Shown here piece by piece: positions 15,185-53,087 of a stretch of DNA of 64,000 nucleotides (position 1 is its first letter; each line of letters starts with the position of its first letter). Origin of the DNA: Paraburkholderia sp. PGU19. GTDB taxonomy: Bacteria; Pseudomonadota; Gammaproteobacteria; Burkholderiales; Burkholderiaceae. A program made the translations under genes and the position numbers. The stretch spans positions 1,302,001-1,366,000 of the forward strand of contig NZ_AP023180.1 in NCBI RefSeq assembly GCF_013426915.1, in the 5' to 3' direction. The notes under the pieces were generated by a model, which was given only the letters and a program-made list of their open reading frames with translations, was not told the DNA's origin and did not search any database.

Positions 15185-15344
15185 TCCGCTGCTGCGGTGG
15201 TCTTTGCTGGTATCTGCTGGCGCCTTCGCGGCGCGTGCGTTGCGCGTGCTTTGTCTTCGACGGTTTGCTGGTTTGGTTCGGGTTCGCTCTGGCGTCGGCG
15301 TGGCGCATGCGTTGTCCCTGTGCGGGGCGGCACCTACTTTTGAT

Positions 15345-16131
15345 TGTCTGCGACGCTGGGTGGTTTGCTTCGGGTTTGCGCTGGCATCCGCGATGCGTTA
15401 GCGTGCTTCACGCGTCGCCCCTGTGCGGGGCGGCACCTACTTTTCTTTGCCGCCGCAAAGAAAAGTAGGCAAAAGAAAGCGGCTAACACCGCCAATCCTT
15501 GTGTTTGCCTGACGGCCCCCAACCGGTCTTACGCTTCACGCGGCGGCGCCTTTGTTTGCGTGCGTTGCCAACGCTCTCTCTGCGCGCCTCACCCGCTTCA
15601 CGCACCCGCGTCGCATCATGCCGTGCCAGATAGTCCACTGCCGCCCAGGTGGCAAACTGTGTGTAGGCCGTAGTACTGCACACGCCTCGCTCCGGACCGA
15701 TAGCGCACGCGCTCCACCATTTAAGAGCGCCAGGTTATACGACGCGACAACCTACACACAGTTTGCCACCTGGGCGGCACATACCAGTCGCTGCCCCTTG
15801 CCCTGTACGGGTGTTTGAAGTGGGTGAGGCGTTCATTCGAAGCGTTGGCAACGCACGCAAACAAAGGCGCCGCCGCGTGAAGCGTAAGACCGGTTGGGGG
15901 CCCTCAGGCAAGAACTAGCGCTGGCGGTGTTAGCCGCTTTCTTTTGCCTACTTTTCTTTGCGGCGGCAAAGAAAAGTAGGTGCCGCCCCGCACAGGGGCG
16001 AAGCGTGAAGCACGCTAACGCATCGCGGATGCCAGCGCAAAGCCAAAAAGCACAGGACCGACGCCTGAAGCACGAAGGCATAACGCGGATGCCAGCAAAA
16101 ACACCAGCAAACCAACCACCCGTCGCAGACA
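15345..16131. repeat. Palindromic composite element, copy A
   Basis: Outer ends TGTCTGCGACGCTGGG at 15345 and its inverted counterpart ending at 16131. The core 15379-16037 is 659 bp, bounded by CGCTGGCATCCGCG and its complement. Each arm holds a perfect 14-bp stem, 4-nt loop hairpin (15437-15468 and 15948-15979). The centre is bounded by perfect 28-bp inverted repeats (15640-15667 and 15751-15778) that enclose 83 bp. That centre is in opposite orientation to copies B and C. Open frames inside it read through the hairpins and are probably not genes. It fills the gap between the DUF190 gene and the DHA2 transporter gene. Confidence 0.9.
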
Positions 16132-16333
16132 AAGCAGCTACCACCCCGCGCACAGGGGCAACGCCTGCCCCGCGTAGGGGCCACGACGTCCCGCACCGCG
16201 CTCCTTACGAGTAGATAATTCACGCCGACGGCAGCTAGCCGCCCCACGGAAAATCCAGTTGCAACCACAACGTCATGGCATTTGCCCGACTTGCTATGCA
16301 ATAATCAACATTCACTTACATCGCTCGCCGCCC

Positions 16334-17755: not shown

Positions 17756-17970
17756 TGTCTGCGACGCTGGGCGGGGTTTTGGTTTTTTCTCTCGCGTTTT
17801 CGGTTGTGTTTTCTCGGCGCGGGTGGATTGGGTATGCTGGTCTTTTCGCTGGCATCCGCGTTGCGTTAGCGCGCTTCAAGCGTCGCCCCTGTGCGGGGCG
17901 ACGCGTGAAGCAGGCTAACGAATCGCGGATGCCAGCGCAAAGGCCAAAACACCGCCCAGCGTCGCAGACA
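17756..17970. repeat. Mini-copy of the palindromic element
   Basis: It has the same outer ends as copies A and C (TGTCTGCGACGCTGGG at 17756, inverted at 17970) and the same CGCTGGCATCCGCG boundaries (17847-17937, 91 bp). The arms meet directly at CGCCCCTGTGCGGGGCG, so the 32-nt hairpins and the whole centre are missing. It reads as a near-perfect cruciform of about 90 bp. It lies between the stop of the DHA2 transporter gene and the AhpD-like gene. Confidence 0.88.
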
Positions 17971-37130: not shown

Positions 37131-37789
37131 CGCTGGCATCCGCGTGGCGCCTACGCGGCGCAGGCGTTGCCCCTGTGCGGGGCGGCACCTACTTTTCTTT
37201 GCCGCCGCAAAGAAAAGTAGGCAAAAGAAAGCGGCTCACACCGCCAATCCTTGACGTTTACCCACGGGCCCCCAAAGGCCCCGTACTTCACACGGCAACG
37301 TATTTGCCCACGTGCGTTGCCAACGCCCTTGTCGAGCGCCTCCCCCGTTTCACGCACCGGCGCCCTAACCCACGATATGGAATATCCACCGCCCCATAGC
37401 GGCAAACTGTGTGTAGGTTGTCGCGTCGAATAGCGTGGCGCCCTTACAAAGTGGAACGCATGCGCTATCTGTGCGGAATGAGACATGTGAAGCACTTGGG
37501 CCTACACACAGTTTGCCACCTGGGCGGCGGTGGAATAGCTGGCAAGACATGCCGCGACGCGGGTGATTGAAGCGGGTGATGCGCGGGATAAGAGCGTTGG
37601 CAACGAACGCGAACAGGAAGGTTGCCGTGTGAAGTGAGGGACCGGTTGAGGGCCCTCAGGCAAGAACTAGCGCTGGCGGTGTTAGCCGCTTTCTTTTGCC
37701 TACTTTTCTTTGCGGCGGCAAAGAAAAGTAGGTGCCGCCCCGCACAGGGGCAACGCGTGAAGCACGCTAACAAATCGCGGATGCCAGCG
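37131..37789. repeat. Palindromic composite element, copy B
   Basis: The core is 659 bp, bounded by CGCTGGCATCCGCG and its complement. The identical 32-nt hairpins lie at 37189-37220 and 37700-37731. The inner inverted repeat is GGCAAACTGTGTGTAGG at 37401-37417 against 37501-37528; the left inner arm has lost its outer third. The centre has the same orientation as copy C. The outer TGTCTGCGACGCTGGG ends of copies A and C are absent. The left flank (37000-37130) is strongly G/T-rich and the right flank C/A-rich. It lies between frc copy 1 and the small gene at 37851. Confidence 0.88.
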
Positions 37790-52280: not shown

Positions 52281-53087
52281 TGTCTGCGACGCTGGGTGGT
52301 GGTTTGGGGTTTGTGGTGGCATTGGCGGTTTGGTTGTTCTAGTCTTTGCGCTGCGCTGGCATCCGCGATGCGTTAGCGTGCTTCACGCGTCGCCCCTGTG
52401 CGGGGCGGCACCTACTTTTCTTTGCCGCCGCAAAGAAAAGTAGGCAAAAGAAAGCGGCTAACACCGCCAGCTTTTGTTTTTGCCTGAGGGCCCCCAAAGG
52501 GTCTTACGGTTCAAACGGCAACGCACCTGTTCACGTGCGTTGCCAACGCGCTGAATGAGCGCCTCACCCGCTTCGCATTCCCATATTTGGGCGAGCGGCA
52601 GCGAATGGTTTGCGCCGCCCAGGTGGCAAACTGTGTGTAGGTTGTCGCGTCGTACAGGGTAGCGCTCTTACATGGTGGCACGCATGCGCTATCGGTCCGA
52701 AGTGAGGCATGTGGAGCACCTGGGGCCTACACACAGTTTGCCACCTTGGCGGCGGTGGCATACCTGGCACGGCATGCTGTAACGCGGGGGTGTGAAGCGG
52801 GTGATGAGCCCTGTAAGAGCGCTGGCAACTAACATGGGTCACGTGATTGCCGCGTGAAGTGTAAGACCCGTTGGGGGCCCTCAGGCAAAAACTAGCGCTG
52901 GCGGTGTTAGCCGCTTTCTTTTGCCTACTTTTCTTTGCGGCGGCAAAGAAAAGTAGGTGCCGCCCCGCACAGGGGCGACGCTTGAAGCAAGCTAACAAAG
53001 CGCGGATGCCAGCGGAAAGGCTAGAACAACCAAACCAAACCGCAAACCCCAGCAAAAAACCCAAACCACCACCCAGCGTCGCAGACA
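52281..53087. repeat. Palindromic composite element, copy C
   Basis: Outer ends TGTCTGCGACGCTGGG at 52281 and inverted at 53087. The core 52354-53014 is 661 bp. The 32-nt hairpins lie at 52412-52443 and 52925-52956. The inner inverted repeats, 28 bp with one mismatch, lie at 52614-52641 and 52726-52753 around 84 bp. Orientation of the centre is as in copy B. The copy fills the gap between the MscS-type gene and the ABC operon. Open frames across it are probably not genes. Confidence 0.9.

Follow-up and report, generated by a model that had tools for sequence, protein, structure and literature searches.

Introduction

MITEs such as Correia, NEMIS and RUP are non-coding elements with inverted ends that occur in many copies and share these ends around different middles. 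In rRNA operons and other dispersed gene families, non-allelic conversion homogenises copies at fixed places, and an evolution of REP sequences through gene conversion was reportedly proposed by Higgins, McLaren and Newbury in 1988. The literature on REP, BIME and REPIN sequences describes intergenic palindromes in hundreds of copies, with pairs of inverted conserved ends around a variable spacer, that behave as a within-genome population (PMC3116915, PMC8049555, PMC2817692). REP units measure about 20-60 bp and REP doublets are commonly spaced by 71 and 110 bp (PMC3116915); related literature was also consulted (PMC3686654, PMC13316101). An old question is what allows dispersed repeats to persist in bacteria: movement, usefulness to the host or gene conversion. 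It is testable in the family described here, which offers more than 100 marked copies per genome, fixed sites, flanks that diverge by less than 1% between strains and linkage from which the rate of mixing can be estimated.

Results

Three long palindromic elements of similar size and architecture

The window is the whole stretch of DNA that was analysed, 64,000 nucleotides of the soil bacterium Paraburkholderia sp. PGU19, whose genome is called the own genome below (G000 in the comparisons between genome pairs). The original prediction was that it carries three intergenic copies of an element with shared boundaries, cores of 659-661 bp, constant hairpin spans and a centre of 83-84 bp; all of these values were recomputed and confirmed. 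The features are as follows, in window positions.

15379..16037, unstranded: copy A, palindromic element core, 659 bp (ends, hairpins, self-complementarity)
37131..37789, unstranded: copy B core, 659 bp (ends, hairpins; syntenic site in relatives)
52354..53014, unstranded: copy C core, 661 bp (ends, hairpins; unbroken syntenic alignments in relatives)
15437..15468, unstranded: copy A left 32-nt hairpin, within the most conserved block (about core 38-116)
15948..15979, unstranded: copy A right 32-nt hairpin, within the matching block (about core 545-622)
15639..15667, unstranded: copy A inner inverted repeat, left arm, 29 nt, 100% complementary to 15751-15779 at a separation of 83 nt
15751..15779, unstranded: copy A inner inverted repeat, right arm, partner of 15639..15667
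37189..37220, unstranded: copy B left hairpin
37700..37731, unstranded: copy B right hairpin
52412..52443, unstranded: copy C left hairpin
52925..52956, unstranded: copy C right hairpin
15292..15378, unstranded: copy A left flank, with a partial element-end duplicate (15292-15346, 103 bp ahead of its match) and the outer motif TTGTCTGCGACGCTGGGTGG
16038..16135, unstranded: copy A right flank, rich in A and C, carrying another end unit and the reverse-complement outer motif
17847..17901, strand -: solitary element-end fragment, 55 bp, near a gene end (profile match, model positions 606-660, 42.6 bits)

Each core starts with CGCTGGCATCCGCG and ends with its complement. The two 32-nt hairpins have an outer span of 543 bp in copies A and B and of 545 bp in copy C, and the 15-nt anchors of the inner inverted repeat are separated by 83, 83 and 84 bp, respectively. 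Identity to the own reverse complement reached 0.83 (A), 0.74 (B) and 0.80 (C), compared to a mean of 0.58 and a maximum of 0.62 for 20 random 660-mers from the window, and the arm pairs of copy A include one of 240 nt at 92% complementarity in addition to the inner 29 nt at 100%. The two hairpins had been described as identical: their position, length and spans held, but their sequences differ in the loops, which are mutual reverse complements (GCCGCCGC and GCGGCGGC). A transposase had been reported missing from copies A, B and C, with which we agree, and the dispersed family with fixed size and ends proved to be real.

A weak inverted symmetry extends beyond the core, into a left flank rich in G and T and a right flank rich in A and C, where end units are repeated. 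Outside the core there are also partial element ends, spaced by about 100 bp (15292-15346 in the window; loci L115, L052, L203 and L205; strains MBA4, MWAP64 and 852011), and the G/T-rich flanks hold repeated TTTGCGCTGGCATCCGCG units, as if the ends had grown outwards by tandem duplication.

A scan of the window with Rfam 15 at the gathering score returned one tRNA only and no match to the element. Searches of an open-access text library found no description of the family or of the hairpin sequence, in line with the earlier failure to assign the element to a named family.

A large intergenic family spread across the genus

Counting copies per genome, a check suggested together with the original prediction, gave about 110-140 copies in the own genome, placed between genes (motif counts), and located the end motif in 128 of 144 genomes of the same genus. 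The inner motif CAAACTGTGTGTAGG is present in the own genome at 112 places on one strand and 108 on the other, and the end motif, 25 bases long and matched with at most 2 mismatches, at 136 and 133, with a count of 0 for the reversed control of each. Forward and reverse counts of the end motif were about equal across the genus, with a maximum of about 250 per strand, and a family-wide draw recovered it from 21 of 150 genomes and 3 of 25 genera. Draft contigs often stop in or beside the element (L121 of strain C35; contigs of G217, G252, G273 and G088), and short-read genomes therefore undercount it.

Sixty-nine full copies were parsed in the own genome, this number comprising the copies that span the profile, from loci fetched for part of the family, with truncated copies outside the count. 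Their length was 656-663 bp in 66 cases, 618 bp in two and 670 bp in one, and their mean pairwise identity was 0.854. Core positions 38-116 and 545-622 and the inner repeat were near-invariant among these copies, the remainder being variable. All of the best 40 genome matches to copy A spanned at least 655 of its 659 bases; by contig, they fell on C1 (17), C2 (16) and C3 (7), and none fell on C4 or C5, which together make up about 2.3 of the 11.2 Mb (about 20%) of the genome.

Among public plasmid or chromid records, 19 matched copy A (Paraburkholderia 9, Burkholderia 7, Caballeronia 3), with at least 80% of the copy covered in 6 of them. Terminal ends of the TTGGCCTTTCCTTG type occur in other species, and distant members combine the same ends and palindromic plan with different middles and lengths, several genomes showing one typical length.

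Sites are inherited between species, but the element sequence is not

The constant size of the copies had been attributed to selection on the structure or to a recent spread. A recent spread is not supported, because the sites are shared between several species. Seventeen of the 25 full copies on chromosome 1 of P. largidicola lie at sites that are occupied here, 0 at sites shown to be empty, and 8 were unmatched, maybe only because their place is absent from the set of loci of the own genome. Three sites of the own genome in the flhA area are also occupied in P. largidicola and in strain Ac-20365. A synteny search covered copies B and C in four relatives (G001, G057, G078 and G151): the site of copy B was found in syntenic DNA of all four, with about 1.4 kb of extra DNA in G001, and copy C lay within unbroken syntenic alignments in each of them. 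Following site conservation by a protein scan was abandoned, as its 80 loci included no more than a few close Paraburkholderia. The best reading is that the family is old and shows no visible movement between the species compared.

The sequences at shared sites were compared in 58 orthologous site pairs, which share genomes and sites and are thus not independent, from 7 genomes with 132 full copies (flank matches of at least 500 bp on each side, flanks 87-97% identical; partial and IS-interrupted copies kept out of the identity tables). Across 17 genome pairs, same-site identity equalled different-site identity within noise, with single comparisons varying either way, and an earlier run with fewer loci had the same outcome. 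The identities of individual genome pairs were as follows.

G000-G001: same-site 0.841, different-site 0.835 (n=18, flanks 93.0%)
G000-G151: same-site 0.868, different-site 0.869 (n=8, flanks 94.8%)
G078-G151: same-site 0.867, different-site 0.877 (n=2, flanks 96.8%)
G000-G128: same-site 0.727, different-site 0.725 (n=2, flanks 87.5%)
G000-G078: same-site 0.872, different-site 0.851 (n=1)
G001-G078: same-site 0.801, different-site 0.835 (n=2)

Orthologous identity of the immediate flanks in G000-G001 was 0.82 over the first 30 bp, 0.88 at 30-120 bp and 0.91-0.93 farther away, and the orientation of the element relative to its flanks was reversed in 7 of the 58 pairs. Copies were more alike within G128 (0.894, one pair) and G020 (0.882, 6 pairs) than to those of G000 (0.725 and 0.758). 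The within-species excess was slight for G000 (0.858) and G001 (0.852) compared to 0.833 between them, and there was none for G000 and G151 (0.858 within G000, 0.869 between). In all of these comparisons the copies of relatives had been fetched as best matches, possibly raising their likeness. Thus, the sites are inherited and the element sequence is not.

Closely related strains differ by short tracts inside the element

At four sites in P. largidicola, element identity between strains PGU16 and F2 was 0.985, 0.973, 0.865 and 0.986, with flanks at 98.4-99.9%, and that between 22B1P and F2 was 0.998, 1.000, 0.980 and 0.998. For P. caribensis 852011 and MWAP64, the elements were 0.951, 0.948, 0.883 and 0.936 identical with flanks at 98.4-99.6%, one site showing 32 differences in the element versus 1 in the neighbouring 240 bp. 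Elements of MBA4 matched those of 852011 and MWAP64 at 0.851-0.869, which is the level of unrelated sites (0.859-0.861), with flanks at 95.4-96.6%. Summed over four sites, element differences amounted to 125/2624 (PGU16/F2), 15/2635 (22B1P/F2) and 185/2634 (852011/MWAP64), and the DNA 200-1200 bp away differed at 47/7903, 44/7986 and 63/7577 positions, respectively. In a first comparison, the adjacent 120 bp had seemed to match the element in divergence (5.1% and 8.1%), a result that was due to indels and tract spill-over: longer anchored alignments showed few changes beside the element, except for a tract overrun of 60-90 bp at one edge or an indel, and the neighbouring 240 bp often had 0-3 differences between strains.

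Some of these tracts have an identifiable partner. At PGU16 site 106294, a 139-bp tract with 33 differences from F2 is identical to a PGU16 copy 6.2 kb away, and for 12 of the 15 clusters with at least 2 differences one haplotype is found exactly in another PGU16 copy, in a search that covered 57 of about 185 copies and in which some exact matches were short (9-41 bases). Both alleles were present in the pool at 3% or more for 197 of 229 differing positions, compared to an expectation of 0.63-0.65 under random mutation. Clustering of the differences exceeded that of 1000 draws for 4 of 7 strain-level pairs and was not significant for the other 3; the eighth pair (site 106294, PGU16/F2), to which the profile assigns opposite directions, was omitted from the clustering and allele test. 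Two unclustered pairs (9 and 10 differences, both alleles in the pool for 6/9 and 5/10) resemble plain mutation.

Linkage between variable positions decays within tens of base pairs

In the own genome, r2 between variable positions was 0.24-0.26 at 1-2 bp and reached background by about 25-50 bp. Decay was slower in G001 (r2 of 0.087 for 25-49 bp and of 0.036 above 100 bp, with 0.029 expected by chance), and linkage in G151 was at chance level within about 50 bp. By distance class, the own genome gave 0.240, 0.179, 0.103, 0.050, 0.032, 0.023 and 0.020, and a simulation with 130 copies and mean tracts of 150 bp gave 0.299, 0.161, 0.097, 0.054, 0.031, 0.024 and 0.020 for the same classes. Copy number was taken from the count and diversity fixed at 0.25 in this simulation, tract length being the sole varied value, and tracts of 60 or 400 bp fitted worse. 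Long identical stretches between sites exceeded block shuffles in G000 and G001: in the own genome, two copies at a distance of 73 kb have 284 identical columns in common and a cross-replicon pair 173, compared to at most 117 in the shuffles. The third genome tested, G151, had no excess of long shared tracts over block shuffles.

Gene conversion between copies as the main reading

With a probability that we put at roughly 80%, these elements form an old, static family of intergenic palindromes that is kept alike by ectopic (non-allelic) gene conversion with tracts of about 150 bp. Copies at different sites of one genome would overwrite short stretches of each other, and would do so frequently enough that a copy may cease to resemble its own counterpart in another strain. 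All copies would then constitute one freely mixing pool, with size, ends and consensus staying uniform per species and the species drifting apart slowly. Because the element is palindromic, tracts could pair in either direction, orientation could change and the two arms could come to share variants in the long term.

As for the mechanism, the hairpins, which are the most conserved part of the element, may open on single strands at the replication fork, and hairpin or cruciform extrusion could provoke a break or a template switch. The broken end would pair with another copy via the 60-80-bp invariant blocks and copy a stretch of it, the copying being carried out by ordinary RecA-type recombination and the near-invariant hairpin blocks acting as anchors or starting points. 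The family was probably founded by a spread through transposition that has since been lost from view.

In E. coli, SbcD is a nuclease that cuts palindromes. No SbcD scored over the curated cut-off in the own genome, and 15 of 141 genus genomes had one, including G128, which has the highest copy count. SbcCD was rejected as the driver on this basis: judged by copy number, it is neither required nor excluded.

Paired changes in the hairpin arms and a possible host function

Within the own genome, arm identity was 0.801 between the left and right arm of a copy and 0.799 between arms of different copies, and the cells with both arms changed numbered 362 versus 328 +/- 15 after shuffling, so that arm-to-arm homogenisation inside a copy was rejected. 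At the species level (32 distinct copies from 24 genomes), identity was 0.911 between own arms, 0.880 with another copy of the same genome and 0.791 with other genomes, a level of arm agreement reached in 0 of 2000 permutations. Such agreement at the species level without an excess within copies would arise because exchange runs in both directions. Across the genus, the hairpin arms change in pairs, from C-G to T-A at 11 of 64 ends and from T-A to C-G at 12 of 64, with a paired deletion at 30 of 64 and few unpaired intermediates. The proposed selection on structure is therefore upheld in part, by these paired changes, but not by the arms within the own genome, where those of one copy match no better. 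The shared size and sequence are better explained by copies that overwrite each other, together with constraint on a few blocks.

A structure that functions in the host, as a bidirectional terminator, a structured RNA or a chromosome-organising site, could explain the fixed sites and blocks and is compatible with gene conversion, and we consider it rather unlikely. It is suggested by the paired variation of the hairpin arms, by the absence of the two smaller contigs from the best 40 matches and by gene context: the 69 copies, placed with a home-made gene caller, lie between convergent (32), tandem (35) and divergent (2) genes, compared to 94, 326 and 81 for adjacent gene pairs at the same loci. 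The four copies with deposited annotation in strain F2 do not repeat this bias, however, with 1 convergent, 1 tandem and 2 divergent contexts. RNA that exits the element on either side would have, over its first 30 nt, a composition of A 0.42, C 0.36, G 0.18 and T 0.05; Rho sites are A/C-rich and G-poor as these exit flanks are, and the likeness to a Rho-like feature is only suggestive.

Two findings argue further against a host function. Element-side gene ends are not short of terminators, which are found at 19 of 80 such ends versus 16 of 149 controls, and a replacement of native terminators by the element, suggested by two empty sites, was rejected on these counts. A one-strand RNA signature was also missing, an energy-free pairing map giving near-equal numbers of G-U (595) and A-C (550) pairs; an apparent one-strand selection in an RNAalifold map of the 69 copies (836 G-U versus 152 A-C) was rejected as a bias of that map. 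Host selection may maintain the conserved blocks, or possession of them may simply admit a copy to the pool.

Continued transposition and the search for a transposase

A MITE- or REPIN-like element that still transposes, with same-site copies replaced through excision and new insertion, would account for the high copy number, the intergenic position and the inverted ends shared across the genus around different middles. It would also account for two sites beside flhA that lack the element in P. aspalathi and P. susongensis, genomes that are too diverged there for base-exact placement of the ends. The search for empty orthologous sites, which had been put forward as a check, showed 0 among the 17 locatable P. 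largidicola copies, however. Strain differences are patchy within the element and do not look like whole-element swaps, and linkage over tens of bp cannot come from the replacement of whole copies. No clean target duplication was found, and the three Y1_Tnp matches of the own genome (one of them weak) had no match to the core or to an element end at E 0.01 in their fetched loci of about 3.3 kb. Altogether, we consider ongoing transposition improbable.

An element-borne transposase was rejected too: in a non-exhaustive search that also found no autonomous relative combining a transposase with the same ends, end pairs 1.7-3.3 kb apart enclosed ordinary IS elements or an orphan gene. This gene, of about 150 aa, lies in the loop between the arms of a long version of the element (about 1.7 kb or more) in other species (L251, L252, L254, L256, L271-L300). 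It occurs in 71 of 141 genus genomes and not in the own genome; taking the best locus per genome (n=30), element ends flank it on both sides in 10, on one side in 4 and on neither in 16. Its protein had no Pfam or NCBIfam match and has 354 homologs, the named ones among the 120 listed being from Paraburkholderia or Burkholderia sp., and its predicted structure would be all-helical with three helices, at low confidence (mean pLDDT 65.6, pTM 0.37).

The element is a landing place for several ISs, which sit at recurrent positions in own-genome loci. An IS66-family element lies in the hairpin loop in all 5 cases seen, with an 8-bp duplication visible in 4 of them, an rve/HTH_38 (IS30-like) element at the hairpin foot in 4 of 4, and a DDE_Tnp_1 (IS4-like) element in the middle, with 11-bp duplications, in 3; further inserts are of other kinds. 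The first three families were assigned by Pfam. The 15 interrupted loci come from copies found via one motif, and the groups are L056, L082, L088, L101; L060, L061, L069, L089, L109; L052, L075, L109; L083, L108; and L110.

Other ways to obtain unlike copies at one site

If copies evolved alone, without exchange, with a few blocks selected and the rest saturated by very fast mutation, near-invariant blocks (core 38-116 and 545-622) would be expected to stand out from a variable remainder, as they do, and fast-mutating positions would likewise share alleles between copies. This view does not agree with the orthologous likeness that the adjacent non-coding flanks retain (0.88 at 30-120 bp in G000-G001), with differences that lie in tracts, carry pool alleles and have exact partner copies in PGU16, or with the multi-site linkage over 3-25 bp; we give it very little credence.

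An assembly or polishing artefact, by which assemblers mixed repeats or misplaced copies, is brought to mind by draft contigs that end inside the element, for example at both ends of a 5,873-bp contig of strain C35. The separate records of F2 and 22B1P nevertheless agree at the four sites compared (0.998, 1.000, 0.980 and 0.998), indicating that complete assemblies are not randomly scrambled, and linkage over tens of bp and site-dependent tracts over the 58 pairs are unlike swapped copies, which makes an artefact hardly plausible. The least probable alternative is allelic recombination, whereby a strain takes up whole regions from others together with a foreign version of the element. Bacteria commonly acquire DNA in this way, but the differences stop at or within about 60-90 bp of the element edge in DNA that is 98.4-99.9% identical beyond, and same-site copies were not alike in any species pair compared.

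Discussion

Gene conversion between fixed sites implies that non-coding sequences occupying one site in two strains may differ in ancestry, a caution for phylogenies, typing and genome assembly. The family also lends itself as a natural assay of how long imperfect palindromes recombine in bacteria. More speculatively, and with more doubt than belief, the elements could be seen as a within-genome DNA population that lives by recombination and not by transposition. Hairpins would provoke exchange among palindromes at fixed sites, so that a sequence spreads, competes and coheres by overwriting its kin; the invariant blocks would make a copy a good partner, losers would decay into landing places for ISs, and transposition would only found the family.

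With REP, BIME and REPIN sequences, the family shares inverted conserved ends and a variable spacer. Its hairpin foot ends in GTAGG, with GTAAG and GTCAG variants in relatives, and may correspond to the GTAG-type head of REP hairpins. It differs from them in its length of about 660 bp, in a hairpin span of 543-545 bp where doublet spacings are about 70-110 bp, and in a likeness that is kept by exchange between fixed sites; unlike in REPIN/RAYT systems, no RAYT gene flanked by element ends was found in the loci around the Y1_Tnp matches of the own genome. With MITEs, the family has in common terminal inverted repeats, a non-coding nature, high copy number and shared ends with different middles, whereas its palindromy over the whole length, the lack of a visible target duplication and of detected moving copies, and sites that are shared across species set it apart. 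As in the concerted evolution of the rRNA type, dispersed copies are homogenised at fixed positions, with same-site copies no closer than different-site copies (58 pairs) and partnered tracts (12 of 15 clusters). Unlike rRNA operons, the copies are non-coding, number more than 100 and are only about 85% alike, and exchange between them is still effective. The idea of dispersed palindromes kept alike by gene conversion is shared with the 1988 proposal for REP sequences, and what is added to it here is a long element, a comparison of same-site with different-site copies, strain-level tracts with a partner, and the decay of linkage.
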